This document shows, piece by piece, positions 494-54,925 of a DNA stretch of 64,000 bases (position 1 is the stretch's first letter; the number at the start of each line of letters is the position of its first letter). This stretch comes from Lytechinus variegatus (lineage: Eukaryota; Echinodermata; Echinoidea; Temnopleuroida; Toxopneustidae): contig NC_054740.1 of the NCBI RefSeq assembly GCF_018143015.1, forward strand, positions 49,844,240-49,908,239, written 5' to 3'. Position numbers and translations under genes: made by a program. Under the pieces are notes generated by a model that saw only the letters and a list, made by a program, of their open reading frames with translations, made no database searches and had not been told where the DNA came from.

Positions 494-3400
494 TTAATGG
501 CTTTGGGTGCGAGCCAATGCTGTTATGCTTGCCATAAGTTCACGTGCACGGACAGGAATGTGATCAGTAGAAACCCCGATTCCATACACGAAGTGCTCTA
601 AGAATGCATAGAATCCCTTCAGCTCATCTGCATACTCAATGTTAAAAATGTAGTGGCTCTTGAATAGAGCATCAACTGCTTGAGTAGCATCACTCTCGCA
701 GGGTACGGCTTTCCCATCAACAATGATGAAGAAAGTCGACGGGGATGTGAAGCCATCTCCTATGCGAAGCAGGTACGGCTGGGTTCTCTTTTGATCCGTT
801 TTCTCAACGAGAAAACTCGCCACAGCGGTTCCGTTCTGCAAGGAAACACAAGTGTCATAATAGTAGTACAGTAATTCCAGGGGTTGAGGATATGTGCAGG
901 TGCAATGTGCACGGCATAGATGCAGTGAAGCAAAAAAGATTTAGAATATAAAAGAACTCAGTGCAATGATATTGCTATGACCCCGAAAAATATGTTATTT
1001 TCAAATTGTGATATCTTGCAAATTATTCAATATTTTGGCATTCTGTCTTTTGAATCATAATTATAATCAAATCTCTATATTTACTGGCTATTCCAATTAA
1101 AATCAGAAATTAGTCTTATAAGATATAAAATGCAATGGATGAAACTGGGATAAAAAGGAACATAAATTGTAGAAATAATGTGCTCTTTTTCCCACCTATG
1201 CCTTAATAAGGCCAATACAAAATGTGCATGCCTGCGTGGCAAATTTATCAAGCTTTCGAAAAATATAAATTTGAACTTGTATAACGGGTCAAGAACACGA
1301 GAGTTCATTTAAATGAGGCACTCGGCTCATTTGTATACAGTCTTTGCCAGTATGCTGTACATGGACCATCAAAATTTGAACATGATACATATACAGTCAA
1401 CTTCGCATAAGTAAAACTCCAAGGGACCATGAAAAATTATTTGACTTATGTGAAATTCGACTTACTCGATGTATATTGCACATAAAGATGAACAGGGACT
1501 ATTTATTTAGTTTGACCTAGGTGATTTTTGACTTATGCAGAGTTGACTGTATTCAAAGGAATTCAAAACGTAACTGGAGTAATTTTGACTGTACGCAGTC
1601 AAACATTATGCCCACATGTTATATTGCGACCAAAGAAGTTTTGCAGGTTCAGGGTATTGATATAGCTGTGCCATGTGCCTTTGTCCTAGTGACCCTACAT
1701 TTATCATTATCAGCCCAATCTATATGCTAAATTTTAAGCCGATTAGCTAGACCATTCTCAAGATCCTCGGAGAACGGGCTATTTCAACTTTGCTGTGACC
1801 CTTAACATTAGCCAAATGCCATTTGGCACTCTGACCTTTAACACTACCAAAAATTTAATTAGATTGTCAACCTGATACAAACATGCAAATGGACAACCCA
1901 AGATTATGCCCTGACCACTTTGTTGGCAGAGGCATGCAAATTCAAAGTCATTTCCACCTACTGCAAGTTATTGCTACATCAATTACATCGGCGGATCCAG
2001 GGGGGGTGCGCAGGGTGCGCGCGCCCCCCCTAATATTTGAGCGGCGCCGAAGGCGCCGCTCAAAATAAAGAAAATAAAAAAAGTAAAAGAAAGAAAAGGC
2101 GCCGCTTGAAAAATTAAAAATAAAGGAAAGAAAGGGAAAAGGTGCTGCTTAAAAAAAAATTATACACTGATATAACATTAGCAACAGTAAAGGAAAGACT
2201 ATCCCCAGCAAAGCGTAATCATATCATCTTCCTTATTTTTTCTTTTAACTACCCTTTTCCCAACAACTTCGCCGGTAGCAGTGCGCTGCCTGCATATAAC
2301 TGGCGCCAATCAAGAATAATCAGCGCCACCTTAATCTAAATCGGCGCCGGACAAGAATAATCAGCGCTATTTAGTTATAAATCGGCGCCAGTCAAGAAAA
2401 ATCGGCACTGCCAGAGTCTTAACCGGCGCCGATCAAGGATAATTAGCGCCACCTTAATCTAAATCGACACTGGACAAGAACAATCGGCGTCATCTGGTTA
2501 TAAATCGGCGCCGGTAAAGAAAAATCGGCGCTGCCTGAGTTCTTAACCGGCGCCGATCAAGGATAATCAGCGCCACCTATATCTAAATCGGGGCTGGTCA
2601 AGAATAATCAGCACCACCTGGTTAAAAATCGGCGCCAGTCAAGAATAATCGGCGCCTCCTGGTTCTAGATCGGCGCCAGTCGATTATAGATTGCCGCTGC
2701 CTGAATCTTACGTAACGTCGGTAAAAATAATCAGTACTACTTGTTTAAATCGGCGCCGGTCAAGACAAATCGGCGCTGCCTTTGTCTTAACCGGCGCCAC
2801 CTAAATTTAAATCGGCGCCGGTCAAGAATGATCAGCGTCCCCTGATTTCAATAAATAAGCGCCAGTAGAATAATGAAGAAGGGCCTATTGCTAACCAAAT
2901 CTAGATCGGCGCCGCGGCCAAGAATGATCGTTTTGCCCTCCCCCAATAATTCCGCATGTGCAAAAACAATAAGATGGTAATGTTACACAGAAATCAGCAA
3001 ACGAGATTGAGCTACGCAACTCGTTCTTTATTAAAAATCGTGCTCAAATTATCAGATTGGAACATAAAAAATTTTCAGCTCGCGCTTCGCGCTCGCATCA
3101 TTTCTGTAGCAAAACCCCATACTTTTCATGATTAAATAGGTGAATAGAATGTCCCGTTTTTAGTTCTGAACCTCAAAAGAACTCTCGCTTCGATTTGCAA
3201 TAATCTTTTGTTGGATATAATCTTGTTCTTTATTAAAACGTACATTAAACTGTAATGTTTTCAGATCGAAATATCAAAATTTTAAGCTCGCGCTTCGCGC
3301 TCGCATTTTTTTTTAGATACCCATCTTAATCATTGGTACCAAGAATGCTTAGAATATCAAGCTTTCTGATCAGAATATAAGTAAATTTCAGCTCGCCCTC

Positions 3401-6400
3401 GGCACTCGCATTATCTGTGTAGTGAGATATGTATCCTCCTCATGAGTTACTACAAACAGTCCTAAACAGGCACCTTTTTCCTGTTTTCAGGTCAGTATAC
3501 TTTAAAAATTTCAGCTCGCGCTTCGCGCTCGCATTAATTTGTCGGTGAAATATGTGTCTCTATCTCATGAGTCATGTATATCTATATGATATGAGTCATA
3601 TATATATATATATATATATATATGCATGTGTGTGTGTGTGTGTGCGTGTGCGTGTTTTGACAGGGTCAGGCATTACCCCTTTTCTTTTTCAACATTTTCT
3701 TTTATGGCGACGGTGAAGTGCAAAAATATGTGCGCCGCTCGGCAGTGCGCCCCCCCTTTCGCCAAAAGCTGGATCCGCCTATGAATTATAATTAAATGTC
3801 AATGAAGTTTAAAACAAATGGTCCCAGAGAGAGTGTGTGCCATCTCTGTTAATCCATATGATGAATAGCCCACAATGACCTTCATGTATTCAAGTTTTAG
3901 TTGACAGGTTTCCATGATTACTCAATAAACAATTGGAATAGTGAGTTAAAAATTACATTCAATTTATTTCATACCGGTCTTGTGACCATGAAGTATGAGA
4001 GAGCATCTGAAATTGAAGATTTCTTCCCTGCGTGTGATGGGAGAAGGTATATCAGTACTTTGTAAGCAAACAGGGCATCTGGAAGAAAATGAATAAAAGA
4101 ATACACAAATAAATGAATAAATAAACAAATGAATGAACGAATAACAATATACATGGATAACTATAGCTCCACTTATCAAGGCAGAATTCCATTCAGAGGC
4201 CCTACAAGGAAATACATTATGGAAAGCAATACAGCAATTTAACTCTTTAAAATTATTTTTACAAGCCTAAAAAGCTTCCTCAAACTTCCTAAAAGAAATT
4301 TTTAAAAATCAATTATCTGACATTTCACCTAATGCTATGAAGTTCTGAGTAGTGACAATAGTTAAGCATGCTTGAAATTCATCCACAAATTATTAGTTTC
4401 ATGCTACTGAAATACATACACCATCCAAAATTGATGGATGAACATACACGTAGGACTTGTTGCATCCTCTTTGTGAATAGTTCCATTTTGGATCTGAAGA
4501 TTAGAAATAGTGCTAAATATGCAGAATTCAGTTCATACCCCATCGGTAAGGGTACACTACACTCTAGGTAAAATACAAATCATGGTTGCCTTGTACAGGC
4601 ATTTGTTTTTTTACCCAGGGAGTTAATTGGGCAGGTTATTTGGGTGGTCTGTTATAACAGGGTCCCCATAGCTAAGAATGTCCTCATGAGAAGTGCCTTA
4701 ATACAAATCTGTCATAAATCATAGTCATAAAATGAATATTTCATACCAGGTGTTCCATTGTGTGCATCCTTGGTCTTCTTGTTCTCATCCATCAGTGTTT
4801 GGAGTTTAGGAAGTCTGGATAATTCTCCTACTTTCAGGATGAATGGGGAAAACCGCGTTTCCCAGGTTGAAATGAGTCTAGCTGCTGCATCAGGAAATAA
4901 GAGATGGAATTCCTGCTGCAACTGTATATGAAAGACAGATTGATTTGCGGCAAGTTAGTTTATAAGCCACTAAAAACTGGAAATAGTTACAAATACGGAT
5001 GTAAGAATATATGCAACATTTGGTCTAAGCAAATGCATACATTTTATTTAGTAGGAGTTGATGTCATTAAAATTATTTGAACTTAGATGCTAGACAAGGA
5101 AGGGACTAGCTAGTCCTTTGTATTTTGATATTTTTTCATGGGAGCAATTGCATGTAGCCCTAGCTATTAACAAGAATAAAACTTACCGCAGTTGGGAAAT
5201 CTTGGAATCGAGGGTATCGAGCGAGGATCTCTCCGACTGTTGGATATTCCTCCATAATCCAATTCCTCCTGTTCTGAAAGGACTGTTCCATGGCTTGAAG
5301 AATTTGCTTTCTGTTGTCAATACTAGCTCTTTTGCAAAAAAGAATCAACTCTTCCTCCTCCACTTGAGGAATTTCCTCTAGATGTGCATGGGTGCGCTTT
5401 GGTGTCTGGGAAATACCAATCAGACAATGACATTAAAAGATTAAAAAAATAACAACTTCAACATGTTTTGTATCGAATTAGGGATACAAGAATAAGCTCT
5501 TGAAGTCAAACCTTACTTGTGATGACATTACTACACATATTGATATTCATATTTCATATATTTTAGCATTTTCCTTCATACTGAGGATGAATAAAAGGAT
5601 ATTAGAAACATGTGACAATGAAAAAAATTGTTTAAAAAATTGATATTTTGAGATTTATTTGGAAATGAATCCTTCTTAGCATCATGGTGTTACCTTGGAC
5701 TTGGAATTCCCTGCCTTCTGCGGTGTCTTCTGTGGTTTTTGGTCCGTCTTGGTGCGTGGACGCTGCAACTGATCTGGAGGTAAACTCCTCATTGTATTGA
5801 GCTTCGTAGCAAGGTACCCCTTTGTGGCATCATTGGGGTCAAACCACAGATCCTGTTAAATAAAACAGTATTTTTCTAATTAGTGTCACATGTAAATTAA
5901 ACTTATTTAAATAACATATTAAGAAATGAAATCATACACCAAAAAGAGAAAGTTAAAAATCTCCCTAGACAGATTAGCAAATGAAAAGTGCATACTTGAC
6001 CCAATTTAGCAATCAACTTCTGAAAAATTCATTAAAATGTGTATCTTAGCTGTTCATGAATCAACCACATCCAACCATTTTAAACACCTTTTCAGCTACA
6101 CGTACCCTCTTTTGATATGAATACATGTTTATCTATTCAGTTACTGGCAAAAGGAATAGAATGAAATAGTGTCTGTATGCTACAGACTACTGGGAAAAGA
6201 CTGGATAATGCTTGTCTGTGCATTGTGTCGATTCTCTTTTGGGACTTATATGATTGCTAATAAAAATCATATGAGAAAAGTTGTCATTGGAAAGCAAAGA
6301 TTAGACCAAATTTAGAAAAGTACTAATTTGCCCATGTTTCAAGAAAAAAAAAATTAATACACACCATGCATCTTCCATAATTACAGTGAATAATAATTCT

Positions 6401-9400
6401 TGTCTGTACTTGTTATTTTCTGTATCTTTTTTTTTCATTTGTATATGGCAAAAAAAACAAAAAAACAAAAAACTAGATGAAATTCAACTACACAGTCAAA
6501 ACATATGCATCCACTTCCCTAGAAAAACAGAGTTAAGCCCTTTCCCTTTTCATATGAGAAATTCAGCATTTTTAATCCTTTTAATGGAACCACGTGACCC
6601 ATATGACATTCGACCTAATGACCCCCAAATCTTAAGTTCATTATCACACAAATAAGTGCACATGTACAAAATTTGAAGCTGATCTGCTGAACCATGTATA
6701 AGATATCGCAATAACCAGCTATTTTCATGCATTTAATGACCCGTCATCTGTGACCTTAGACCCCAAACTCTAGTCACATCATTGTCTACCCTATATGTAT
6801 ACACATGCCAAGTTTGAACTTGATGCACAAAACCGCAAGCATGAGAACGAAAACGGGACGGGTGGACGGGCAGCCTGAAAACATAATGCCTCCGGTGACT
6901 TCCTGACAGAGGCATGATAAAAAATAAGGGCTCACGATACGGCTGTTGCTGGTGGTATTTCTACAGCACTACATGTTAAAATTGGTGGGTCGTCCTTGAA
7001 GTCTGAAATAAGACCACATGCAAACCATGCAGCCTACATGTCGTTCTGAATGCATGAGCTGATGAGCATTAAAAATACTTCAAAACAAGACTGTGTCATG
7101 TTGGGTCAGCCTGGTATGCATGTAGTCTTGTTTCAAGGTGTCAAGGATGACCCATTGGCTCCTTAACATATATTTAGATAGGTTACATGTATTTCTAATT
7201 TGTACCATTTTACAAAACAGCTGAATGTGAATCAAATCAGAAGTTTATGGCAAATTATGGGCAAGATCTAAATAAGGCTTACCCAGCTTTTGTCACTTTA
7301 CATTGTTTACCTTATTTACATGGCTCAACATTACCAGTGGACAGTAAACTTTGTATCCAAGTCAGTAAATATTCATAAATATGAAGTTTCAGTTGCCGCA
7401 TGAGCTACTTCAATATTGTGTGAAGTCAAATGATTGCCGGTATTAAAGATTCCTGTTCTTTTGAATTAAATTTCTAATTTAGTGTCCTTTTAGCCGAGTA
7501 AAACATGTTCAATTGAGTACATTCCCTAAAACATTTGGTAAGTATAATTTTTCTCATATGGGCAAGTACTTTCTTTGTTTATAAGGCCACAAAAAATATG
7601 AAAGCATGTTTACTGAGCTAGATCAGGCCATCACCTAAAAAATGTTTGCATGGAGCTCTGCTATGAATGTCTTTCAAATTATTTTTTTCTATATTCCCTT
7701 ACAAATTATGTTTCTTACATAAGGCCATTTTGTGTTGGATTTCAGGTTGGGAAAAGCATCTATGACACTCTTTGCGACGAGAATCTTGTCTTCTCTGGCA
7801 GGGTAGCTGTGGGGGAAAAAAAAGGCACGAAAACCTACATGCATAAATAATCTTTTTTCTTTTTTTTGGTAGGAAAATGGACATACACTGCAATGTGTAT
7901 AAACAAATTACAGAGATGTTACTATTGTTCAGCTTTTCTATTCAATGTGAAAATACATATGGTAAACATGTAGGACCTATAAATAGCCAAAAAGAAGGGA
8001 CATGCATATTGATATGAAATTAAGAAGTTAAAGGAGATAAGAGCTAAGCATGACCAACACCATGCAATCAATCCCAAACATGAAAAGCACCTTCAACTCT
8101 ATGAGGAGCATTCAGGGTAGTGAATTGTTGGGTGCACAAGGTAATGGATAACAAATTAATCTCAGCTATGGATAAACTTGTTCCGCATCCTCAGGTTCAA
8201 ATTATACACATAGGATGGGCAGCAAATATAAATCATCTTCCTAAACAAACACATGCAAAGATCTCCTGTTTTGAACACACTATCTTTGGACTGGGATGTA
8301 CACAAAAACGTACATCATGCTATTCTTGCAATACTATATTAACAACAAACATACATACAGTGTATGTAACTGTACAAAAATACATTCTACACTTACTATG
8401 AATATCTCCTAACCATTTCTGATGCAACTATAGAGGTGAGAACTTGTCGCGTTTCGGTTGTGAGAGTGCCGTTAGCCTCATATTCCTGCTCCACTAGATA
8501 TCCCCGTGGATGCGAATTTGTGATGGTTTTCACATCAAAGCTCTAGAATGAAAATTTTGAAAGATTATCATTAATAATTATAATCAATTTTCGCATAGTG
8601 ACCCCTGTAGCCTTTGACCTCCTGCCAAAAATACCGGAACTCTTTAGCTTGAGATGTGCACACCAACTTTGGTGTTCATCGATGCGTCAAAAAGTTCTTG
8701 AGATCACTACAAGAGCGGGATGGACATGCATACACATACAGCACATCATGTACTTATACGGATAGACTGCCTCCAGCTGAATGTTACTATATGAACTTCA
8801 ATGATAGCCTTTCCTGGGAGGTGAGAGCACAACACTAAATTTTAAGTACACTGTGAAAACTGCAGGCACCCACAAGTTCTCAAAACCATGCTAAATCATG
8901 ACAATTCTTTTTCAGCAGTTGGTAAATATTTACCCATATATTTTATGAAATAGTAAGATTTGCCTCAACAATTTAAATCTGATGCTTTATAGCATGAATG
9001 GAATCATTCCATCAATCACAACTGGGAACTAAATGTACCTGCCTCAATTACAACTTGAGTAAATACCATACATTTACTTACGTGTTCTTTATTTGAACTG
9101 GTCTTCATTGTAGACTGCTGCAACGACTTTTGGGGCACCTCTTTCTCAGTGCTAGTTTCTGATGCCTCATCCAGACTTGTTCCTGGTCCCACTGCTTGAG
9201 TGCTGCATGCTTCCACGACAAGTGATCCCCCGTGGGCCAATAATTCCAGATCATCAGTGTCATTTTCATCTATTTCTACAAAGGAATCAAATTCCTTTAC
9301 TTTCATTTTGATTATGTAATCTTTTTGAAGGTCTATGCTGAATTTCTGCGATATTTTGAATTTCAAACAATTCAACATCTCCTCCTTCGGCTCAGCACTA

Positions 9401-9477
9401 GTCAATGGCACCGATATTAGTTTTGTTCGATCCTTGCATGTCACGCAGAAAGGCACAACTTGGACATTATCTTCCAT
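494..9477 (-). CDS. PB1-like/SAMD3-like protein, gene A (eight coding exons, 542 aa)
   Basis: Exons on the minus strand: 9484-9082 (ATG at 9477), 8542-8397, 7806-7719, 5852-5694, 5405-5187, 4921-4747, 4078-3975 and 835-494 (TAA). All junctions have GT-AG sites and phases that agree (0,2,0,0,0,1,0), giving 542 codons. Residues 1-95 look like a PB1/ubiquitin-like fold with an acidic EIDENDTDD stretch. Residues 133-263 hold the conserved blocks with LVEQEYEANGTL and GYLATKLNTMR. Residues 264-336 end in YPTVGEILARYPRFQD; 337-395 have FPDAAARLISTW. Residues 430-542 hold the C-terminal module (PYLLRIGD, FFIIVDGK, DALFKSHYIFN). Length and block order resemble SAMD3, but PB1 replaces SAM. Function unknown; the PB1 suggests oligomerisation. 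A splice acceptor 7 nt before the ATG implies an upstream non-coding exon. This is the only SAMD3-like copy here with no visible damage. Confidence 0.82.
1394..1549. mobile_element. 156-bp MITE with TA target duplication
   Basis: The termini are CAGTCAACTTCGCATAAGT and, inverted, CAGTCAACTCTGCATAAGT, matching at 17 of 19 positions. TA lies on both sides (1392-1393, 1550-1551). It has no coding capacity, and size and TA fit a Tc1/mariner-type non-autonomous element. It lies in the last intron of gene A. Confidence 0.75.
2290..2940. repeat. Minisatellite built on ATCGGCGCC units
   Basis: Degenerate tandem units of roughly 40 bp alternate ATCGGCGCCGGTCAAGAA-type words with ATCAGCGCCACC-type words, so each pair of units spans about 80 bp. 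They stand out sharply from the AT-rich surroundings by their GGCGCC content. Confidence 0.7.
3078..3535. repeat. Four copies of a GCTCGCGCTTCGCGCTCGC box
   Basis: Copies begin near 3079, 3288, 3392 (diverged) and 3515, each preceded by an AT-rich AATTTTCAG-like context. The box is itself nearly palindromic (GCGCTTCGCGC core), so each copy could form a short hairpin. Confidence 0.6.
3598..3652. repeat. TA/TG microsatellite
   Basis: About 12 TA dinucleotides are followed by a TG/CG-type run (TGTGTGTG with some CG). It lies inside the 1990-3779 element. Confidence 0.9.
5853..7718. repeat. Intron 3 of gene A with a dispersed repeat at about 6590-6916
   Basis: The intron is AT-rich and has no other gene signal. 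Near 6590-6916 lies a stretch of GACC-rich text (TGACCCATATGACATTCGACC), then TTTGAACTTGATGCAC, a CGGACGGGTGGACGGG run and a tail GCCTCCGGTGACTTCCTGAC. Similar diverged pieces occur at about 1590-1945 and 8590-8780, so this is an interspersed family. Confidence 0.45.
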
Positions 9478-9850
9478 TTCTAAGCTGAAATTAGAGACAG
9501 ATAAAAGGAAACATGTGAAATAAAATCTTGATATGAAATTTTTTTAAAGCATTATTTCATATTTAAATGCAGAAAGATAGAATGTATTTGTCATGCACCA
9601 ATGATGCCTATCTTCCCGGTGGACCATATGAACGTAACCCATGGAAAGCGAATTGCATAATAGATTGTTTACAGTGTGGTTTTGAACAAGTTCAACTGTT
9701 CATGTACATATATCTGCAAAGATCAATGTCGAAGAAAGTTTAGTTTCTTCTCTTACACAGTCAACCAATAGAGTTATTGAAGTCGAGTAACTTCAAGTAA
9801 ACTGCTTCTATTAATAAGTTGGATGGATACATTGTATACTGTACATGAAG

Positions 9851-12800
9851 CTAACATATTCTAGGGCCTATAAGCATGTGCTCATTAATTCTACCTGTTA
9901 AGACAGCAGCACTTCTCAATGAAATGTACAGAAGTTCCTTTCGCTGTTCATCATATGAGCTTACAACTTGAAGGGGCTGGTAGCTTCTTAGTTCATCCTG
10001 CTTAATGAGGAAAAACTCCACAGGATATCTTGACAGCACTTCGTATGCATAGAAGTGATCATCAAATCCATGGGTTTCCCACATTGTTCCAAACAAGTAA
10101 ATATCACTTCCAATGCAGTACATATCAATCAACTTTCCAAAAGATGGCATACAATCCTGAACACCTATGTTCACACTCATTCCTGATCGGTACTCCGTGC
10201 CATGTAGGCTGATACTCTTGTTCACCACTATTTCGTCAACTTCACACAGGTTTGGGAATTTTCCAAGGAGCGTGGCACATCCCTCAGTTTCTCTGATCAG
10301 TTGTTTAACAGGATTCCTAATTACAGGATTCTGGCCAACCCCATGAGTATACCATCTATGGCACTGGCTGATTTGATGTCTCTCTGCGACAGTTTTGGCA
10401 ATGTCCTTGAAATTACCAACAACAGTTGCCAAACATTTTGCGATGGCATGTTTGGCCTCATACCTCATGCACCAGCAGTTGATAAGAGGTCCTACTTTCT
10501 CAATCATGAAAGGGTAGTGTACAAGGAAGTGATGTTTCGGGGTAAGATCTCGAGCTGGAAACAGCTTCTTGAACAAAGTGTGGTGATCCTCTAAGTGGTA
10601 TCTAAGGTGGCCAATCATGGATTCTGTAACTTCTCTGGCAAAGGCAATGTCCATTACCCTTCTTAGCAAGATAAGCAATTCCCAGTACTGATTGCCTCTG
10701 GGAATTTGATCGCCAATAATGAGGGGCAGGTATCTTATGAAGCACCACATCTGCGATGCAGAGTTCTTAAAGGAACTGTCTTCATTAAGCAAAGTACTTG
10801 CAGAGATCAGAGACGGCTTGTTCTTCATATCAACAAAGCCGTATGAGAAAGAACTCAACCTCTGATTCAAAAGATCAAGCGTGAACAATTTCTCTTCATG
10901 TATCAGATGTCTAAGAACTAATTTGCACTCAAGTTTACCAACACCCTCAAGAATATCATGCATCACATCAGGACAAAAGTTTTGTGTGACATGAAAGTAT
11001 CGTGAATTGTTTAGAACACATGCACTTTTCACTCCATGGTTAGATACTGAGTGTTGATCAAGCATAACAGACTGCACATGAAGGTCATGATCTGCTCGAG
11101 TTCTTTTTTGACACTGGTCATCATGAAAGAGTACCTGCATTTCATGTCTTGGTGTCATACAGGTTCTGCATGGGTAGTTTCCTCGAAAGCTTTCCACAAA
11201 ACCACACAAACTGTTTGCACCTAGGTTGTCTGCGGGTGTTTGAACTAAAGTTCCTCTGATTTTCACAACATTTCCATTTCTTAACGTGATCTCTGCTCCA
11301 TCGTCAGATTCCAGTTGCGCCAACTCCTCCATGAATGGTTCCAGTATAGGTCGAAATCCATACTTGTCACGATCCAGACTATGGAACAGGCCAAGCAAAT
11401 GGATAAATGGCAGAGTAGCATTCAGTCTAGAAGGTACGTTTTGCAAAGTGTAATAGAGTGCTCCCAGCTTATGAATGCCTCGCTTGGATCCAATGGGATT
11501 AGTCACCTCAAAATCATCATAGTACAATGCAATTTGCAAACCATGTGGACATTCTGAAAACAAGGGATGAGTCCTAAAATGTGTACCATCACAAAAGTGT
11601 CTCCTTATACCATCAGTTGACGGGGACATATAGTGTATCTCAGCTACGACATCTGGATTACTTAACACAACTCCAAGTGTTTCCTTCAGGGATATATATT
11701 GAAATGTGTCTTGCACAAGAACTTGTCTGGCAACACCAGTTGATTTATCCACTCGAACATCAAAACGATTTCCAAGAACAATAGTCTGTGGTTTAATTAA
11801 TCCAAGTTCCTGTTGAAAATATTGCTCTTGTTCATATCGCGAACATAATGAAGGAAATGGGTTCTGAGCTTCCTTAAATGAATCGAGCAGTTCCTTACAA
11901 CCAGCTGAATTTTCATCAATGTTTTTTGTTAGTAAAAAATGTCTAGTTTTTTGCTCTAAATCCGTCACTATATCAGAAATGAACGATGCTGACTGTTCCA
12001 CAACCCTTTGAACAGTTGTGTACGTTACATTAGACTGAGAGAGTAAAGCAGTGATGAAAAGTGCTGCCCTTTTCTGCAGATGTAAACTATCAATTATTCC
12101 ATTGTTCTCATCATTTCTTTCCACTGTGATGTCTTCATGGTCATAAACTGCTGCTGGATGTACAGGGTCATCAAGGTCTTGCTCATCATCGATATCACTA
12201 TTTTCACGATTGCCAACATTAACAGTTTGCTGAATGCAAGGCTCATAGTCGTGTGACCTAAGTAAGTGTTTTCTAAGCGAGTTAAAAGTATGGAAAGTTT
12301 GGGGACATCCCCCCTGACCACACTGTACAATCAATCCAGGTCCGTCAAACAATGCATGGGCGACATGCAGATGTGAAAACAACTTTGAATGTCCATGAAA
12401 AATTAAATGACATACAAAGCACTTCAGTTCCATTACCCATCATAATAATTATCACAATCCACAGAAATACAGTATGCCATTGGATGTCCATATATGCATG
12501 CAGAAAATAAAAAGGAAGAAATGCATGTGACTTTCCACTTTGAACTCACCTTGTTCAGTCGAGAGGACAAGAGTACAAATTCCTTGTATCTAAGAAATAA
12601 AGGATCTCTCAGAAATTCAAAGTCAGAGGTTTTCGCACTTTTTGCAGATACTGCTGACCTAGTCTTCTCATCTGTTTGTGTAACAGAAGCGTCAGTCCGA
12701 GAATAAAATCCAGCTGAGCTCATATCACTGCATGTGACAGAACTTGTGCTTTGATTGTCATCATCACAACTTCTATTTACAAAAGGTGGTAGGGAACTGT

Positions 12801-44500: not shown

Positions 44501-47500
44501 TTTCTTCAACATCTGTACACTCACTTTATCACAAAGAAATGCATGAAATATACAGATGTGTTATGTAATGACCATTTCTAATGTTACTCCTAATGTCCAG
44601 TGCCCTATGGATTTACACACATCCTACATGCCTATATGTAGCTCAACAATGGATGCAATGTAGGGCCCAAATCCTATAATGCAAATTGTAGATATGAATA
44701 GTGTGCATATCTGGATTCAAGATCTGCCCACAATATAAATACCAGATTCACATGAGTTTAATTAGATAACAATAAAAAGAAATGAGAATCAACATACAAG
44801 CATACTATACATTCACATCTTCCTATGACAAGGGCCCAAGCCAGGGTGTAAGAGAAAGAGACAGGGGGTTAGATGGCTTGTATTCTAAATGGATGGGGGC
44901 TAGTCTGGCTAGAAGTCAGTAAAAGTTGAACAAGATGGCAGTAGAACTCATTCTCAGCCCCCCCCCCCACATACTAACTATGCTTTTCTCTACCCCCCCC
45001 CCCCCCCTCTTGAATCCACCACTCTTCAGTCAAATTCTAAAGTTGTCTCTTTCATTCCCTTCCCCATGAACCAATTTCACAAGCGCAATTGATGCAAGGC
45101 CTATCTAATGTGAGCTTTATCTCGTGATGGGTGCAATACACGATTTACAGCAGCGCTCGTCGGTATACGAAAACACACAACATGCAAGCAAGTCCCAGTG
45201 ACAAACACATGCACATACAGCCTACACAGCCTAGCCTAGGTACACAAACACAGAGTTAGTTACTAATAACAACTTGTTACCTGTAGTACCCCCTATGTAG
45301 CCTTGTATAGCCATGAAGTTCAGTTTTTGGACCTCTTGATGATTGAAACATGTCTACTAGTAGAAACAATCTGCTACTGAAGAGTTGGGCAGGGATTTCA
45401 TCCACTAAGGAATTTTAGGCTATGGTCAAGGTTATATATATGTATTGTATGGCACATGAAGGTTTCTTTTTAATTTACCTTCCTGGCTTTTCTTCAACAT
45501 CTGTACACTCACTTTATCACAAAGAAATGCATGAAATATACAGATGTGTTATGTAATGACCATTTCTAATGTTACTCCTAATGTCCAGTGCCCTATGGAT
45601 TTACACACATCCTACATGCCTATATGTAGCTCAACAATGGATGCAATGTAGGGCCCAAATCCTATAATGCAAATTGTAGATATGAATAGTGTGCATATCT
45701 GGATTCAAGATCTGCCCACAATATAAATACCAGATTCACATGAGTTTAATTAGATAACAATAAAAAGAAATGAGAATCAACATACAAGCATACTATACAT
45801 TCACATCTTCCTATGACAAGGGCCCAAGCCAGGGTGTAAGAGAAAGAGACAGGGGGTTAGATGGCTTGTATTCTAAATGGATGGGGGCTAGTCTGGCTAG
45901 AAGTCAGTAAAAGTTGAACAAGATGGCAGTAGAACTCATTCTCAGCCCCCCCCCCCACATAATAACTATGCTTTTCTCTACCCCCCCCCCCCCCTCTTGA
46001 ATCCACCACTCTTCAGTCAAATTCTAAAGTTGTCTCTTCTCATTCCCTTCCCCATGAACCAATTTCACAAGCGCAATTGATGCAAGGCCTATCTAATGTG
46101 AGCTTTATCTCGTGATGGGTGCAATACACGATTTACAGCAGCGCTCGTCGGTATACGAAAACACACGACAACATGCAAGCAAGTCCCAGTGACAAATACA
46201 TGCACATACAGCCTACACAGCCTAGCCTAGGTACACAAACACAGGGTTAGTTACTAATAACAACTTGTTACCTGTAGTACCCCCTATGTAGCCTTGTATA
46301 GCCATGAAGTTCAGTTTTTGGACCTCTTGATGATTGAAACATGTCTACTAGTAGAAACAATCTGCTACTGAAGAGTTGGGCAGGGATTTCATCCACTAAG
46401 GAATTTTAGGCTATGGTCAAGGTTATATATAGGTCTCACAGGCCTAATTCATTCCCCATAGACTCATGTGTTAAATTGGCACTTTAAAAAATTCATAAAA
46501 AATAAGGATGAAATTCGGGGGTCGAATGTTTACTACCAGTGGATAGGATTTATATCTGGCAATCCATATCTGACCAGAAAAGGGTCCCTCGACCGGCTCA
46601 TTTTAAAAATAAATTGGCGTGTTTGAAGACACCGTCGGGGGGAGCAGATTCATCAACTCAAACAGCAAAATAGCCCTAATCCTTCCGCCAGTCATAATAT
46701 AGTCCAAAATTGGTGATATTTCTTCCCAATTAGGGAAAAGGAAGTTCAGTAATTACCAAAAATAGAATCAGTGTTAGATGGACAATCATATGCATACACT
46801 TTGTCAATCAGCCATATCAAAATAAAAAAAATAGCAATGGGTTGGCTCGAATGAATATCTATGGCCTACCACTAGTAATTAGGCCCGTGAGACCTGTATT
46901 GTATGGCACATGAAGGTTTCTTTTTAATTTACCTTCCTGGCTTTTCTTCAACATCTGTACACTCACTTTATCACAAAGAAATGCATGAAATATACAGATG
47001 TGTTATGTAATGACCATTTCTAATGTTACTCCTAATGTCCAGTGCCCTATGGATTTACACACATCCTACATGCCTATATGTAGCTCAACAATGGATGCAA
47101 TGTAGGGCCCAAATCCTATAATGCAAATTGTAGATATGAATAGTGTGCATATCTGGATTCAAGATCTGCCCACAATATAAATACCAGATTCACATGAGTT
47201 TAATTAGATAACAATAAAAAGAAATGAGAATCAACATACAAGCATACTATACATTCACATCTTCCTATGACAAGGGCCCAAGCCAGGGTGTAAGAGAAAG
47301 AGACAGGGGGTAAGATGGCTTGTATTCTAAATGGATGGGGGCTAGTCTGGCTAGAAGTCAGTAAAAGTTGAACAAGATGGCAGTAGAACTCATTCTCAGC
47401 CCCCCCCCCCACATACTAACTATGCTTTTCTCTACCCCCCCCCCCCCCTCTTGAATCCACCACTCTTCAGTCAAATTCTAAAGTTGTCTCTTCTCATTCC

Positions 47501-50500
47501 CTTCCCCATGAACCAATTTCACAAGCGCAATTGATGCAAGGCCTATCTAATGTGAGCTTTATCTCGTGATGGGTGCAATACACGATTTACAGCAGCGCTC
47601 GTCGGTATACGAAAACACACGACAACATGCAAGCAAGTCCCAGTGACAAATACATGCACATACAGCCTACACAGCCTAGCCTAGGTACACAAACACAGGG
47701 TTAGTTACTAATAACAACTTGTTACCTGTAGTACCCCCTATGTAGCCTTGTATAGCCATGAAGTTCAGTTTTTGGACCTCTTGATGATTGAAACATGTCT
47801 ACTAGTAGAAACAATCTGCTACTGAAGAGTTGGGCAGGGATTTCATCCACTAAGGAATTTTAGGCTATGCCTATGGTCAAGGTTATATATAGGTCTCACA
47901 GGCCTAATTCATTCCCCATAGACTCATGTGTTAAATTGGCACTTTAAAAAATTCATAAAAAATAAGGATGAAATTCGGGGGTCGAATGTTTACTACCAGT
48001 GGATAGGATTTATATCTGGCAATCCATATCTGACCAGAAAAGGGTCCCTCGACCGGCTCATTTTAAAAATAAATTGGCGTGTTTGAAGACACCGTCGGGG
48101 GGAGCAGATTCATCAACTCAAACAGCAAAATAGCCCTAATCCTTCCGCCAGTCATAATATAGTCCAAAATTGGTGATATTTCTTCCCAATTAGGGAAAAG
48201 GAAGTTCAGTAATTACCAAAAATAGAATCAGTGTTAGATGGACAATCATATGCATACACTTTGTCAATCAGCCATATCAAAATAAAAAAAATAGCAATGG
48301 GTTGGCTCGAATGAATATCTATGGCCTACCACTAGTAATTAGGCCCGTGAGACCTGTATTGTATGGCACATGAAGGTTTCTTTTTAATTTACCTTCCTGG
48401 CTTTTCTTCAACATCTGTACACTCACTTTATCACAAAGAAATGCATGAAATATACAGATGTGTTATGTAATGACCATTTCTAATGTTACTCCTAATGTCC
48501 AGTGCCCTATGGATTTACACACATCCTACATGCCTATATGTAGCTCAACAATGGATGCAATGTAGGGCCCAAATCCTATAATGCAAATTGTAGATATGAA
48601 TAGTGTGCATATCTGGATTCAAGATCTGCCCACAATATAAATACCAGATTCACATGAGTTTAATTAGATAACAATAAAAAGAAATGAGAATCAACATACA
48701 AGCATACTATACATTCACATCTTCCTATGACAAGGGCCCAAGCCAGGGTGTAAGAGAAAGAGACAGGGGGTTAGATGGCTTGTATTCTAAATGGATGGGG
48801 GCTAGTCTGGCTAGAAGTCAGTAAAAGTTGAACAAGATGGCAGTAGAACTCATTCTCAGCCCCCCCCCCCCACATAATAACTATGCTTTTCTCTACCCCC
48901 CCCCCCCCCCTCTTGAATCCACCACTCTTCAGTCAAATTCTAAAGTTGTCTCTTCTCATTCCCTTCCCCATGAACCAATTTCACAAGCGCAATTGATGCA
49001 AGGCCTATCTAATGTGAGCTTTATCTCGTGATGGGTGCAATACACGATTTACAGCAGCGCTCGTCGGTATACGAAAACACACGACAACATGCAAGCAAGT
49101 CCCAGTGACAAATACATGCACATACAGCCTACACAGCCTAGCCTAGGTACACAAACACAGGGTTAGTTACTAATAACAACTTGTTACCTGTAGTACCCCC
49201 TATGTAGCCTTGTATAGCCATGAAGTTCAGTTTTTGGACCTCTTGATGATTGAAACATGTCTACTAGTAGAAACAATCTGCTACTGAAGAGTTGGGCAGG
49301 GATTTCATCCACTAAGGAATTTTAGGCTATGCCTATGGTCAAGGTTATATATAGGTCTCACAGGCCTAATTCATTCCCCATAGACTCATGTGTTAAATTG
49401 GCACTTTAAAAAATTCATAAAAAATAAGGATGAAATTCGGGGGTCGAATGTTTACTACCAGTGGATAGGATTTATATCTGGCAATCCATATCTGACCAGA
49501 AAAGGGTCCCTCGACCGGCTCATTTTAAAAATAAATTGGCGTGTTTGAAGACACCGTCGGGGGGAGCAGATTCATCAACTCAAACAGCAAAATAGCCCTA
49601 ATCCTTCCGCCAGTCATAATATAGTCCAAAATTGGTGATATTTCTTCCCAATTAGGGAAAAGGAAGTTCAGTAATTACCAAAAATAGAATCAGTGTTAGA
49701 TGGACAATCATATGCATACACTTTGTCAATCAGCCATATCAAAATAAAAAAAATAGCAATGGGTTGGCTCGAATGAATATCTATGGCCTACCACTAGTAA
49801 TTAGGCCCGTGAGACCTGTATTGTATGGCACATGAAGGTTTCTTTTTAATTTACCTTCCTGGCTTTTCTTCAACATCTGTACACTCACTTTATCACAAAG
49901 AAATGCATGAAATATACAGATGTGTTATGTAATGACCATTTCTAATGTTACTCCTAATGTCCAGTGCCCTATGGATTTACACACATCCTACATGCCTATA
50001 TGTAGCTCAACAATGGATGCAATGTAGGGCCCAAATCCTATAATGCAAATTGTAGATATGAATAGTGTGCATATCTGGATTCAAGATCTGCCCACAATAT
50101 AAATACCAGATTCACATGAGTTTAATTAGATAACAATAAAAAGAAATGAGAATCAACATACAAGCATACTATACATTCACATCTTCCTATGACAAGGGCC
50201 CAAGCCAGGGTGTAAGAGAAAGAGACAGGGGGTTAGATGGCTTGTATTCTAAATGGATGGGGGCTAGTCTGGCTAGAAGTCAGTAAAAGTTGAACAAGAT
50301 GGCAGTAGAACTCATTCTCAGCCCCCCCCCCCACATACTAACTATGCTTTTCTCTACCCCCCCCCCTCTTGAATCCACCACTCTTCAGTCAAATTCTAAA
50401 GTTGTCTCTTCTCATTCCCTTCCCCATGAACCAATTTCACAAGCGCAATTGATGCAAGGCCTATCTAATGTGAGCTTTATCTCGTGATGGGTGCAATACA

Positions 50501-51262
50501 CGATTTACAGCAGCGCTCGTCGGTATACGAAAACACACGACAGCATGCAAGCAAGTCCCAGTGACAAATACATGCACATACAGCTTACACAGCCTAGCCT
50601 AGGTACACAAACACAGGGTTAGTTACTAATAACAACTTGTTACCTGTAGTACCCCCTATGTAGCCTTGTATAGCCATGAAGTTCAGTTTTTGGACCTCTT
50701 GATGATTGAAACATGTCTACTAGTAGAAACAATCTGCTACTGAAGAGTTGGGCAGGGATTTCATCCACTAAGGAATTTTAGGCTATGGTCAAGGTTATAT
50801 ATAGGTCTCACAGGCCTAATTCATTCCCCATAGACTCATGTGTTAAATTGGCACTTTAAAAAATTCATAAAAAATAAGGATGAAATTCGGGGGTCGAATG
50901 TTTACTACCAGTGGATAGGATTTATATCTGGCAATCCATATCTGACCAGAAAAGGGTCCCTCGACCGGCTCATTTAAAAATAAATTGGCGTGTTTGAAGA
51001 CACCGTCGGGGGAGCAGATTCATCAACTCAAACAGCAAAATAGCCCTAATCCTTCCGCCAGTCATAATATAGTCCAAAATTGGTGATATTTCTTCCCAAT
51101 TAGGGAAAAGGAAGTTCAGTAATTACCAAAAATAGAATCAGTGTTAGATGGACAATCATATGCATACACTGTCAATCAGCCATATCAAAATAAAAAAAAA
51201 TAGCAATGGGTTGGCTCGAATGAATATCTATGGCCTACCACTAGTAATTAGGCCCGTGAGAC
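41558..51262. repeat. 9.7-kb higher-order tandem array A-B-B-A-B-B-A-B-A-B-A-B-A
   Basis: Unit A (about 460 bp) occurs six times: 41558-42016, 43990-44451, 46433-46893, 47893-48353, 49355-49815 and 50805-51262. Unit B (about 985-1000 bp) fills the gaps seven times, doubled in the first two. A begins GTCTCACAGGCCTAATT and ends AATTAGGCCCGTGAGAC, so it has 17-bp inverted ends with one mismatch, like a transposon. The whole array is flanked by CAGGAG on both sides (41552-41557, 51263-51268), an apparent target duplication. Copies are nearly identical apart from C-run lengths and small indels. The array lies inside E3, upstream of gene E. Confidence 0.85.
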
Positions 51263-51816
51263 CAGGAGGGCCCTGTATCGTACACATCCAGATCCAGATT
51301 ATATTTATAGGCCTAACTGTTAGATGTGGTTATCTGTTTCGTAGGTCAGGTGTCCGGACATTTTATATTTTGGAAGCCTTCTTTTTTGTCTTTGGATTAC
51401 CCTAAAAATAATTATGAATTCAATAGTTGTAATCATCTTTTATTTTGTTCTCTATAATATTTCCTACATTTTGTACTAAAAATTGATGAAACTTCGCCTG
51501 TAAATTTCTTTGACTTGCTAAAAGTCCGGACACACAACCTGTCCGAACACACAACAATACCTACACTCAATTAAACAGACGCGCAGCGGAGCTACACTAT
51601 CCAGCCATATAGCACACGTACACACACATACACGCTTCCGTCTGGTGCACGTAATCCTCTCAAAGTTCCACAAATCATCACCTAAATTGAGAATCAATTA
51701 TTCATGTCCACCAAATTTCCTCTCATTCTCTTCAGCAAATTAATTCCTCAGCGGCCTACAGGTGAAATGAACAAAATTATTCACAAAACTGCAGGATTAA
51801 AAATGGTTTTACTCAC

Positions 51817-51860
51817 AGTATTCTCTTGATCCAATTCAGCAATGGCGACGTCAAACGGGA
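51817..51860 (-). other. Candidate leader exon of E3
   Basis: On the minus strand, GAATTGGATCAAGAGAATACT is followed by the donor GTGAGT at 51816. No in-frame ATG is visible. Its position about 150 bp inside E3's right end parallels first exons in E2 and the gene G element, so it may have been gene E's leader. Confidence 0.3.
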
Positions 51861-51867
51861 ATGGGTC

Positions 51868-51965
51868 AACTAAGACTCATTTAATTTTGTTAGTGAGTCA
51901 AGTTTCGCCTGACTCACAAATATTATATATAAATGAGTCACATGACTCACTTTTATCTGTGGATG
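51868..51965. repeat. Right subterminal TGAGTCA array of E3
   Basis: Four exact TGAGTCA/TGACTCA words plus a near match, ending at the terminus CTGTGGATG (51957-51965). It is much shorter than the left array. Confidence 0.65.
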
Positions 51966-54098
51966 AACTTTGCGCTTCGCACACATCAACTTGGAGCCTC
52001 CCGGTTTTTTTTTTTGGGGGGAGGATCTCCAGATCAGAAGTTGCTTGGGGTTGGCTTTGGAGTTTCTGCTGTATTGTATAAAGCCTAAGGTCATCATGCA
52101 CCTTTTACGCCAAAGGTTCTGCACCTAACTGTAAAATCTTGGCGATAAACACACAGATGTTATATCCGGGTAAGACTATACAACCATAAACGCCACCTAT
52201 AAAATCACAATGATCATGCTCTCAATTACAATCTAAGACTAAGAGGAGCATGCAGTGGATAGGGTATATGACTCCGTAACAGTAGGTTATTAATACTAAC
52301 AGTAATACAACTGCTGATTATATGCATTGCAGATCCATACAATGGGTATAACTGCGGGGCTACTGCTATGGAAGGCCTGGGTTTTAAAAGGCGCATGGAA
52401 TTTAGCTACAGGATGTAGACTTGAGACAAGAACTAGGCCTAACCTCTCTTTTATAGGCCTACATTATAATGCACTTGTCAATGTAATGACGCACCCCACT
52501 ACCCCCGGACATGGGTGCGTGGTGGTAATTTTTTGACTGACCACACGGGTTTTTGAGCTTTTTGAGCAACAGAGCTCAGAAAACTACACCATGTACATCA
52601 GTAGAATAGGAAAAAGATTCTGCATTCATTGTGCCCATTTTTGTTGCATGACCATACTACATTTGATGCCAGGAATTTTATAAATGAGAATAATCTTTAA
52701 AGTCTTTAAATTGGCAACACGTTGGGAAGTTAGAGATCACTGTTTTTCATCAAAATTTGCCATTTTTAAAAACATTTGTCAAAGTTTCTAACCATATGTG
52801 TTGTTTTCAAAGACATGACATTCAATTAGAAGCACGTAGCATTACAATTAGAATATTGCTGTTGCCAATTTGAAGAACAAAATGTGATCGATTTAGCCCT
52901 TAAATAATTCCTGTCCTGAATGGGTTAACGAACAACACGTTGAAAGTGACGCACACCTCGGTCACTTTTTTGACGGACATCCTCGGTATATTTGACGCAC
53001 CCCCGCAAATACTGAAACGATTTTTGCTTTATTTTTTTTTGTTTTATTCAAGCAATTTCATTTTCTTTTGGTTCATAAACATAATTTGAAAAAGTTTCGG
53101 CAAGTGCAATTGCATAGACTTCATGTACAAAGCTGACTGTAATTCCCGACTTGCTATGATTCGGACGCTATGCGAGCGCGAACAGCGGCTGCACCTTGCG
53201 GGCTGCTGGGTCTTGCGTTGTGCGACGCAATTCCGCGGCTCTCTTACGCATTGACTTTGCGTGCGCAATGTGCGCTGTCCGAATCTTTGGCAGGGGCGTC
53301 CGAATCATGGATGGAAAAAATATCGATACGTTTTATAATTTTCTGAAAAAACATGAATTGTTTTGAAATTGAAATTTATTAAAATAAATAGGCACATTTA
53401 TTTGACAAACATTTATCATTTTGTGAAAACTAAGTTTAGCAGGAAAAATATTGCAAAAAAAGCTTAAGTGTCCGAATCTTGGGCACTTTACTCTAGAGGG
53501 CCTTGCAAAAATGTGCTCAGAATTAAAGATTTGAGCGCTCTTTGGATTAAAAACCAACATGGCAGCAAAGATAATAATAAAAGACACATAATTCAAGGTT
53601 AATTTTTTTTTGGCTATAATAATCATATTTGAAGACCCTTTTTTTTACTATGTGTTGTGTACTGCTAAGTTTCCCTACACAACAGGTCCAAGACTAACAC
53701 ACTAGTCTAGAAAGTAGAACAGTAATACGACGTTATCATTTGTCGTTAGATATCTAACGTTAATAGTACCACTACCACAGGTCTAACAATATTACAAACA
53801 TGTTTGGCTTTGGCCTTTGCACTGCTTGCCTCGACATCAATCGCACTGATATTTGATAAACTAGCGTTAGCCCGACAAGACCTGTTTCTAATCTAAATAC
53901 TACTGTTAGTGTTAGTACGCTGTGCGAATATACTGGGCTCTGTAATCATGGTAATCCTGTATAGTTGGGGCCTAACACATGATGAGTAAAGTTTGCCTCA
54001 GAAAACCATAGCTCAAGCGAATTCCATGATTTGATTTGTCAAATGAATGATTAGACTAGGCCCCTACTGTATCAACTTGTCAGATCATATTTACATAC
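51966..54098. other. Intron 1 of gene G to the right of E3, no gene seen
   Basis: It contains short repeat fragments (GTCCGAATC words near 53276-53480, a GACGCACC pair near 52488 and 52985) but no exon with splice support. Confidence 0.4.
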
Positions 54099-54165
54099 CT
54101 TCAAAATTTGAAGCAAAACGCTCCAATCCGCTGGCTTGGAGGAGCCTCCTTACCGTCTCGTCCAT
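54099..54165 (-). CDS. Gene G, first exon (SAM domain start)
   Basis: ATG at 54165 begins MDETVRRLLQASGLERFASN, followed by FE, with donor GTATGT (phase 1). This is the first half of a SAM domain (the GLERF/NF region). The phase and fold continue exactly in the exon at 24227-24097. It lies 377 bp from the element end at 54542, the same arrangement as gene D in E2. Confidence 0.7.
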
Positions 54166-54399
54166 CGTGATGTGATGTAAGGTTCTACTACAAACCGCGC
54201 GTGTGCATGTACTGTGGGGATCGGATATGTCGATACATATACGTGATGTCGCGATGTATGTGGCACGATCATGGCCAAAAAATTCGCGTGAATCGGAAGG
54301 ACAAATCAGGCAACATGATTGCTCGCGCCTTAAAGATTGCTCCAATCAAATTGCATCGCCTGAACGTCTGCAATTTCCAAAAAAAAATCGCTGACCCGG

Positions 54400-54542
54400 A
54401 ACGGGGTCACAAGCATTCATTTAATGCTGGTGCTCAGATTGCGTTCAGCTGACTCCTTCCCGGGTCAATGTGACTCGGAAAGGGTGAGATATTTGGGACT
54501 CGGAAAAGTGGTCAATATTCTGACCCGGGGTTTTTAAGAGTG
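54400..54542 (-). mobile_element. Right end of the CACTA-like element carrying gene G
   Basis: The terminus read inward is CACTCTTAAAAACCCCGGGT. Subterminal words GACTCGG, GGGTCA and GACCCGG recur in both orientations over about 140 bp. The left end is not in the window. The insertion lies about 190 bp beyond gene F's exon donor, so the element probably sits in an intron of gene F. Confidence 0.55.
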
Positions 54543-54734
54543 CACGTAAAGAGTTATAAAATCCAAGTTTTTGTAGCGTTATGTGCAGACGGGTGGATCA
54601 ACAGATGTTACAGATAATCCCTTCGTCTCCCTTTACCTCCAGTGAGCTCGAAAAAAACTACATAATCTGATTTCATTTTAGAGGGAATAGCACTGCTCAT
54701 TTCAATTATTGCAACATTCACACAAAATCCATAC

Positions 54735-54925
54735 CATTCCATGACTGTCAAGCAGTCTAGGCCATGTCTGCAACAAGGTCCCAAGTGAAGTGTTCTCGGA
54801 ATAGATCATGTTCAGTCGTATCTTGGAAATGGCAGCCATGTATTCTTGAATAGTTTTATGCGATTCAACGTTGTGCTGCATCCACCTGCGCATTTCAGCA
54901 GCTCTATCTTCTGAGATTGGTGGAT
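54735..54925 (-). CDS. Gene F, single SAMD3-like exon
   Basis: Acceptor TGTTGAGCAG and donor GTATGG, phase 1 to 0, fully open. It reads RRWMQHNVESHKTIQEYMAA and ends GTLLQTWPRLLDSHGM, aligning along its length with gene D's exon 22838-22667 (WLKHNTGP, YPRLLDTGM). No other exon of this gene was recognised on either side: upstream exons would be to the right, downstream ones left of the nested elements or outside the window. Confidence 0.65.

Follow-up and report, generated by a model that had tools for sequence, protein, structure and literature searches.

Plant CACTA transposons (En/Spm, Tam1, Tgmt*), as far as the cited excerpts of PMC2613891 describe them, appear to have several features in common with the locus reported here: CAC..GTG ends, subterminal repeats, a DDE transposase, a second multi-exon product within the element, and deletion derivatives moved in trans. 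Tgmt* makes a 3-bp target duplication, in contrast to the 2 bp found here. The second protein of the plant elements is of the TNPA/TNP1 type, from which the one described below is set apart by description, since it starts with a SAM or PB1-like domain. TNPA binds the subterminal repeats, and TNPA-type proteins are little alike in sequence (PMC2613891, same excerpts); a further activity of plant TNPA is the reactivation of methylated promoters (PMC1636069, in the excerpts used).

Among animals, the TRC/CACTA element SmTRC1 shares a 2-bp target duplication with our elements but differs in having CCC ends, and a short second protein has been postulated to take TNPA's part (PMC1636069). According to the same excerpts, nothing recognisably related to this postulated protein of animal CACTA was on record at the time SmTRC1 was reported, and SmTRC-PrA is without recognisable relatives in other animals, whereas the second gene reported here belongs to a recognisable family that spans element families; Strongylocentrotus purpuratus has relatives of the SmTRC1 transposase. 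A C(2)C + H(3-4)H motif, mostly CA..TG ends, and target duplications of 2-5 bp are shared with our elements by ESTA and other CMCT lineages, the duplication being TA in ESTA and likewise in T, E2 and E3 below; the ESTA families described in the cited excerpts are fungal and carry TET/JBP passengers, unlike those here (PMC12730594).

We analysed a stretch of 64,000 nucleotides of Lytechinus variegatus DNA (the window), for which an earlier note had placed transposon ends at 17266, 18598, 18938/24074, 24646/51965, 25045/34689 and 54542; all of these coordinates correspond to real sequence features. The window probably holds several nested CACTA/EnSpm-like (CMCT) transposons, in which a SAMD3-like gene belongs to the element as its second gene and is not host cargo, and the analysis suggests that the multicopy SAMD3-like family is a working part of transposons. 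The proposed nest is real, with E3 lying within V; T is not in E3. Four of the six proposed elements (T, E2, E3 and V) are delimited, whereas U is without a left end that we could find and W is unproven. Six SAMD3-like loci do lie on the minus strand (gene A, those of E2, E3 and V, and genes F and G), although several copies are partial. Their shared orientation had been called unusual; six loci on one strand would be a coincidence of about 1 in 32, and the uniformity is therefore weak evidence.

T, E2, E3 and V have 5'-CA..TG-3' ends, and the target duplications (2 bp in V; TA in T) fall within the 2 to 5 bp of CMCT elements. The 3-bp duplication of classical plant CACTA is replaced in T and V by one of 2 bp, so we do not claim these as classical plant-type elements. 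In T, E2 and V, family-specific subterminal 7-mers exceed all 100 shuffles, with the word lying mostly at the left end; no subterminal word rose above shuffles in E3 (6 against a shuffle maximum of 7) or in U and W, each examined at one end.

Element T and its two genes

T is a complete CACTA-type element of about 26.9 kb, with a DDE transposase and an eight-exon SAMD3-like gene; its right 17.3 kb occupy 1..17267 of the window, on the minus strand. The left end is beyond the window, at G000:C1:49834585, and the right end (..GTTTTTAGAGTG) has 17267 as its last base. The termini, CACTCTAAAAA..TTTTTAGAGTG, are flanked by TA at either side; TA adjoins 10 of 10 T ends, and both ends recur with identical boundaries at five places. 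Repeat-copy comparison identifies 17268..18126 as the right part of a high-copy repeat into which T inserted: the joined flanks of T form this repeat with a single TA, as in 7/7 copies examined, which constitutes a paralogous empty site. Insertion of T into E3, as the earlier note seems to have it, is ruled out; T is within the high-copy repeat, beside the end of U. Near-unchanged copies of T are present at two further places in the same genome, and the left end has eight weaker relatives (74-77%), of which only the one on C5 was set against a gene.

The SAMD3-like gene of T (gene A) is modelled as eight exons on the minus strand (9477-494) encoding 542 aa. Exon 1 (9082..9477) carries a ubiquitin/PB1-like N-terminal domain and is followed by exons 2 (8397..8542), 3 (7719..7806), 4 (5694..5852), 5 (5187..5405), 6 (4747..4921) and 7 (3975..4078), and by exon 8 (494..835, stop included), which holds a conserved C-terminal domain. 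The transposase (862 aa; 9851..12439, minus strand) has a C2H2-like N-terminus and a DDE core with C(2)C + H(3)H; directly upstream and overlapping it is a 245-aa ORF on the same strand (12433..13170), which may be the first part of the transposase. On one strand and from the right end leftwards, T has the small ORF, the DDE transposase and the eight-exon gene. This transposase is absent from the earlier note.

In a comparison of 11 transposase members, D404, H637-x3-H641 and E661 are nearly invariant and C424-x2-C427 is invariant; the first catalytic D of the predicted DDE triad is tentatively D308. The C(2)C + H(3-4)H motif is defined as lying between the second D and the E (PMC12730594, cited excerpts), and the alignment predicts a DDE transposase of this kind in T. 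Weak Pfam matches to CACTA transposases were obtained (Plavaka, 0.0009; DUF4218, 0.027; Transposase_21, 0.16), each in one of the 11 members, and a search of solved structures with the transposase profile returned mostly zinc-finger proteins, matched at the N-terminus, and no transposase.

Elements E2, E3 and V and their neighbours

E2 occupies 18938..24074 on the minus strand, with ends CACAGTAAAAA..TTTTTACAGTG and TA on both sides. Its SAMD3-like exons (21887..22771, minus strand) are 22771-22667 and 22048-21887, the latter recognised by eye and weak on profile alone (E 1.6). V (24646..51965, minus strand) has ends CACCCACA..TGTGGGTG and a 2-bp target duplication, AA, and is interrupted by E3 (25045..34689, minus strand), which has ends CACTCTAAAAA..TTTTTAGAGTG and a TA duplication. 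With E3 removed, V gives a contiguous match at 24 other places, and among places reaching the junction it is interrupted only in the window; the uninterrupted V sequence elsewhere therefore provides a paralogous empty site for E3. The ends of V are exactly CACCC..GGGTG, with matching 2-bp flanks of varied sequence in 12 of 13 copies including the window (12 flanks were fetched, two being duplicates of each other). SAMD3-like exons in E3 (27904..32315, minus strand) are 32315-32247, weak by profile (E 0.22), 31099-30968 and 28218-27904; those in V (36264..40268, minus strand) are 36584-36264 (profile E 4.5e-19) and one within 40268-40029, recognised by eye and present at at least 25 places with V copies among the best 79 of 221 matches.

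E2, E3 and V keep their ends and a SAMD3-like gene, whole or partial, and no transposase was detected in them; they would be moved in trans. The gene has frame damage in the C10 copy of V, the only further copy of this element that was read at length. The V copies at C1:46.6 and 47.1 Mb have common flanks and are segmental duplicates, and the E2 copies at C1:46.51, 46.62 and 47.13 Mb, with nearby V copies, resemble such duplicates, so that independent insertions are fewer than copies.

Searching the genome with the element ends showed that right-end regions enclose a matching SAMD3-like exon in the correct orientation, in support of the earlier note, which proposed for SAMD3-like genes a place in an animal CACTA-like group, either as cargo or as an integral second gene. 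An exon is enclosed at 7/7 places counted for E2, 9/9 for E3 and 24/24 for V (chance expectation <0.01 each), all lower bounds. The E2 places come from the best 40 of 54 matches, after dropping 30 short ones that stop before the end (63 to about 154 bases, 71-86% identity); the E3 places come from the best 40 of 98, after dropping 31 with only a repeat of about 260-300 bases (query about 122-165 to 423), and at six of the nine the matches listed include query 1-423 and not the terminal 169 bases. The V places come from the best 40 of 1209 by subterminal match, three of the 24 being partial, with repeat matches (query 1-105/108) dropped; the V terminal piece is among the matches listed at 23 of the 24, window included. 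The SAMD3-like exon search, also a lower bound, covers the best 79 of 221 matches. At least 23 V copies have a SAMD3-like exon between both ends. Among the matches listed, 3 of 27 V left ends lack an exon or right end, 5 of 14 E3-type exon matches lack a right end, and two C6 places with only the terminal 100 bases of V, left uncounted, lack an exon.

The right end of U (18128..18600) occurs at at least 22 other places in the genome (best 40 of 55 matches); in 20 of the 22 the matches end at window 18598-18604, and in two about 31-34 bases earlier. W has a possible right end, CACTCTTAAAAACCC (54142..54542), that is single copy in the genome and for this reason unproven as an element. Gene G has a composite SAM domain, its first half at 54094..54165 and its second at 24100..24228 (both minus strand), scoring below cut-off with Pfam SAM_1 (E 0.022). 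Gene F is represented by a SAMD3-like exon of the exon 5 type (54735..54929, minus strand; profile E 3.8e-19), found in the window only among the best 79 of 221 matches.

Transposase families and rival explanations

The T transposase is 100% identical (rounded) at three places, one of which has an in-frame TAA, and at each of them SAMD3-like exon 1 ties for the top score. Transposase families 33-59% identical to that of T were compared at 29 distinct places, 29 more match rows, in part fragments of the same places, being left out. The transposase has a SAMD3-like exon or a SAM domain next to it at 19 of the 29 places: the exon was found by profile at 17, always on the strand of the transposase, and a SAM domain at two more, at one of which body exons come after it (profile E-values computed on a small ORF set). 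One family has the exon linked at 8/8 loci. Eight of the 29 places have no SAMD3-like exon within about 1.5 kb of flank, and two further ones are weak. The exon is upstream, not downstream, of the transposase at L017, L018 and L032, so the two genes do not keep a constant order. Between T and its C5 relative, both genes are constrained more at amino acids than at silent sites, with 0.34 nonsynonymous versus 0.76 synonymous differences per site in the SAMD3-like gene and 0.27 versus 0.75 in the transposase.

That the elements picked up host SAMD3 genes and carry them passively, as Pack-CACTA-like cargo, seems unlikely to us. The presence of the gene in E2, E3 and V, where no transposase was detected, and the decay of at least one V copy would fit passive carriage, as would the passenger genes such as TET/JBP of fungal CMCT elements (PMC12730594, cited excerpts); it is hard to square with the same gene lying on the same strand beside such diverged transposases, and with the constraint on both genes of T and its C5 relative. 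We favour an integral second gene over cargo because transposase and exon 1 occur together in 3/3 transposase-bearing T copies, and because diverged transposase families carry the gene too. Highly improbable is a host multigene family that grew through ordinary duplication, tandem or segmental, and whose genes are separated by unrelated repeats: the C1 duplicates of V with common flanks would fit it, but the ends are exact, there are target duplications and empty sites, and the flanks over many contigs are unrelated. The data for T, E3 and V already contradict it. A pure host gene cluster is ruled out by the exact ends, duplications and empty sites.

The SAMD3-like protein and its possible role

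The N-terminal module of SAMD3-like proteins varies, being either SAM or PB1/ubiquitin-like, and is followed by a conserved body; we presume that the label SAMD3-like, and the link to vertebrate SAMD3 that it implies, is apt. L016 and L019 exceed the Pfam SAM_2 cut-off, and gene A, which has no SAM match, carries a PB1/ubiquitin-like module instead. The exon 1 profile gave weak ubiquitin-type matches to solved structures, the best two being Affilin variants (0.00019 and 0.0024); Affilin is an engineered ubiquitin. A low-confidence AlphaFold model of exon 1 alone (mean pLDDT 49) has the predicted strand and helix order EEHEEHE, which we take to be the ubiquitin/PB1 order; exon 8 and two window relatives were modelled with similarly low confidence (51). 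The gene A protein matched nothing relevant among solved structures (best E 1.4), Pfam and NCBIfam searches of single ORFs gave nothing useful, and the SAMD3-like protein showed no recognisable DNA-binding domain.

SAM and PB1 modules are polymerisation domains. The predicted gene product combines a self-association-type N-terminal module (of the PB1/ubiquitin-like kind in T and the SAM kind in sister families) with a conserved body, and the gene is possibly the counterpart of plant TNPA. We put it at a little short of even that the protein works like TNPA: it would attach to the subterminal repeats specific to its family, form multimers via its SAM or PB1 module, pair the two element ends, and assist or regulate the transposase. 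An integral second gene might instead serve anti-silencing or transcriptional control, in the manner of TNPA's demethylation and promoter role, or nuclear clustering of copies, and not end synapsis, which we consider possible if on balance doubtful. The reactivation of methylated promoters by TNPA, the polymerisation domains, and the 23 or more V copies carrying the gene with transposase undetected are all consistent with such roles, although nothing here separates them from end synapsis.

The SAMD3-like gene family is large in invertebrates and fish. Tentatively, this family would be mostly the second gene of animal CACTA elements, a TNPA counterpart acting through SAM/PB1 polymerisation along subterminal repeats, and vertebrate SAMD3 a tamed copy. 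Literature searches, with Repbase outside their scope, did not find SAM domain, transposase and CACTA together, and those on SAMD3 with transposon, and sterile alpha motif with EnSpm, gave nothing on the subject as judged by title and start of abstract. If the SAMD3-like protein is the postulated second protein, many annotated 'host' genes, here and perhaps in other animals, are transposon parts, and end recognition by animal CACTA elements becomes directly testable, with T a natural subject. The exchange of SAM and PB1-like N-terminal modules would suggest that what is conserved is the need for self-association.

Ends, copies and genes of element T

The proposed element ends in the window (G000:C1:49844240-49908239) were set against the 870-Mb genome, other copies of the ends were checked for enclosed SAMD3-like exons, and transposases were sought. 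The transposon T occupies window 1-17267, with its left end beyond the window. From 16020 leftwards to 1, the window is 99.6-99.95% identical to a copy on contig C6, a single insertion in the window's T aside; further left, T and that copy are 98-99% identical, a tandem-repeat stretch excepted. This similarity ends at C1:49834582 (L047:343), where the left end of T reads TTA-CACTCTAAAAACACTC; the right end, at window 17267, reads ..CAGTTTTTAGAGTG-TA. Searching the genome with the right end and with the left end located the pair at five sites—the window, C6:34416702-34441325, C1:3710499-3737990, C1:6820452-6829445 and C11:21828399-21838296—with TA flanking every one of the ten ends. When the flanks of T are joined, they match all seven copies examined of a high-copy repeat without interruption and with one TA. 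These copies serve as a paralogous empty site, so T produced a 2-bp TA duplication. Similarity of the C6 copy breaks at window 16020, with the remaining right end approximately 5.5 kb further out, and the DNA splitting it reads like a LINE. The C1:6.82 Mb copy is a typical internal-deletion derivative: it is without window 5077-15241, so that the transposase and SAMD3-like exons 1-5 are lost.

The 862-aa open reading frame of T (9851-12439, minus strand) is a transposase. Alignment with ten relatives shows a conserved D in YYDD, D404, CxxC at 424/427, HxxxH at 637/641, and E661; Pfam matches of the family are weak. Gene A, a SAMD3-like gene of eight exons and 542 aa, follows downstream on that strand. 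Its exons were identified by translated alignment: all eight align to a diverged relative at C5:41.09 Mb, and the first three also to a second one at C1:49.79 Mb. At the C5 locus, the last exon of the SAMD3-like gene is followed 6 kb further on by a sequence related to T's left end at 75%. Three places have a transposase given as 100% identical (a rounded value), with an in-frame TAA in one of them, and exon 1 of gene A scores equally at these three. The last intron of gene A contains a 1.8-kb insertion (window 1986-3780) not present in the C6 and C1:6.82 Mb copies; its ends are GGCGGATCCAG..CTGGATCCGCC, and a CGGCGCC-rich 41-base tandem repeat lies within it.

SAMD3-like exons within E2, E3 and V

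The earlier note proposed testing whether matching element ends elsewhere in the genome enclose a SAMD3-like gene, and the outcome is positive for all three further delimited transposons. Short SAMD3-like exons of E2, E3, V and the SAMD3-like loci F and G were combined as a query, and match positions were compared by script with right-end matches; the counts take in the window itself and some segmental duplicates. For E2 (18938-24074), an E2-type exon lies 2.0-3.0 kb inside all seven counted right ends, reading away from the end, and all seven such exons among the matches listed belong to these ends; 30 short E2-like rows are left out. For E3 (25045-34689), an E3-type exon is found 5.1-7.6 kb inside 9/9 counted right ends, for six of which the subterminal part alone is among the matches listed, a short repeat within the query accounting for 31 further rows that are left out; 5 of 14 E3-type exons are without a right end among the matches listed. 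For V (24646-51965), both tested exons are present in all 24 counted right ends, leaving out rows of a repeat at the query start and two C6 places that match V's terminal 100 bases only and have no exon among the matches listed. One of 25 V exons is without a right end among the matches listed, and it does have a V left end. Among 27 V left ends in the matches listed, 24 have an exon, 23 are paired with a right end, the exon lying between the two, and three have neither exon nor right end. The chance expectation of end-exon pairing is 0.0007 for E2, 0.0018 for E3 and 0.009 for V.

The ends of V are CACCCACA..TGTGGGTG (the right end in the window is GTGGATG), and the right end is identical in all 12 copies fetched. 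The 2-bp flanks agree in 11 of these 12, two of which are duplicates of each other, or in 12/13 with the window's AA added; the sole misfit is a 26-kb pairing in which two elements may be joined. E3 is inserted in V: with E3 removed and one TA kept, the V sequence aligns without a break to 24 other places over query 1 to 687-699; at one additional place the alignment crosses the junction with a gap nearby, and among places reaching the junction the window alone is interrupted there. TA flanks E2 in the window and at 4/4 other right ends fetched, and E3 at both right ends fetched. The window copies of E2, E3 and V have no transposase among the transposase matches listed and no open reading frame longer than 143 aa among those listed. 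Within V, a 1.0-1.5-kb unit is repeated about seven times at window 41536-51170, one 300-base stretch being 99-100% identical in seven copies; the array is absent from a V copy on C10, and thus probably arose by local expansion of the window's copy.

The right end of family U, near 18600, has at least 22 other places, with similarity stopping at 18598-18604 in 20 of the 22. Two of these ends, at C17:13465180 and C4:4151650, lie 5.7 kb and 6.9 kb from the transposases of L033 and L014, oriented as in T. W, a possible right end at 54542, is single-copy in the genome. A long imperfect inverted repeat at 55648-56247, with arms of 131 and 106 nt, is probably a foldback element.

Transposases and SAMD3-like genes across the genome

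The transposase search gave 59 rows. The loci fetched number 30 and stand for 29 separate places, L013 and L020 being the same place; the count excludes a further 29 rows, some of which are fragments of places already in it. Profiles grown from gene A exons recognize a SAMD3-like exon in the fetched flanks of 17 of the 29 places (L009-L013, L017, L018, L024-L031, L032 and L037), on the transposase strand in every case. L016 and L019 have a SAM domain reading frame above the Pfam SAM_2 cut-off, bringing the total to 19/29. Weak signs occur at L033, in the form of a PB1-like reading frame recognized by eye (E 2.8 by profile), and at L038, with an exon 5 type at E 0.081; within the roughly 1.5 kb read there is no SAMD3-like sign at L014, L015, L021, L022, L023, L034, L035 and L036. 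Further DNA shows a complete SAMD3-like gene behind two of the transposases: at L019, SAM followed by exon-3, 5, 6 and 8 types (6e-4, 4e-4, 6e-5 and 3.5e-4), and at L024, PB1-like followed by exon-5 and 8 types (1e-4 and 2.5e-10). Gene order can vary: at L017, L018 and L032 the transposase has an exon-8 type upstream of it on its own strand, opposite to the arrangement in T. Identity to the T transposase is 27-59% across the ten relatives compared and 33-59% for those that have an exon or SAM domain.

The eight transposase loci L024-L031, spread over six contigs, have nearly equal scores and an equal PB1-like exon score, a sign of recent activity in another family. Within 150 kb to the left of the window, at G000:C1:49705881-49809486, three more related transposase places share the minus strand with the nest genes, forming a same-orientation cluster.

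Subterminal repeats, proposed role and constraint

The commonest 7-mer in the outer 400 bases of both ends was compared with 100 shuffles. It occurs 12 times in T (shuffle maximum 10), 20 times in E2 (18) and 19 times in V (6); the word differs among the three, with most copies at the left end. E3 has no excess (6 occurrences, shuffle maximum 7), nor is there one at the single end of U or of W.

The elements are of a known kind, CACTA-type, with a second gene that went unrecognized in the literature consulted; Repbase entries may already hold such a protein without a paper. Plant TNPA-type proteins are described as binding subterminal repeats, differing between families, and being required along with the transposase (PMC2613891); an animal counterpart has been postulated and had no recognizable relatives (PMC1636069). 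In the elements described here the SAMD3-like gene holds this position: it is a second gene, is multi-exon, belongs to families with different subterminal words, and is kept where the element has no detected transposase. Head-to-tail self-association is known for SAM as well as PB1 modules, and the SAMD3-like protein may multimerize on the repeats of its own element.

When T is compared with its C5 relative, the SAMD3-like gene (510 codons) has 0.76 silent and 0.34 nonsynonymous differences per site and the transposase (841 codons) 0.75 and 0.27, the silent values being saturated. Both genes are under selective constraint, which is somewhat stronger for the transposase.
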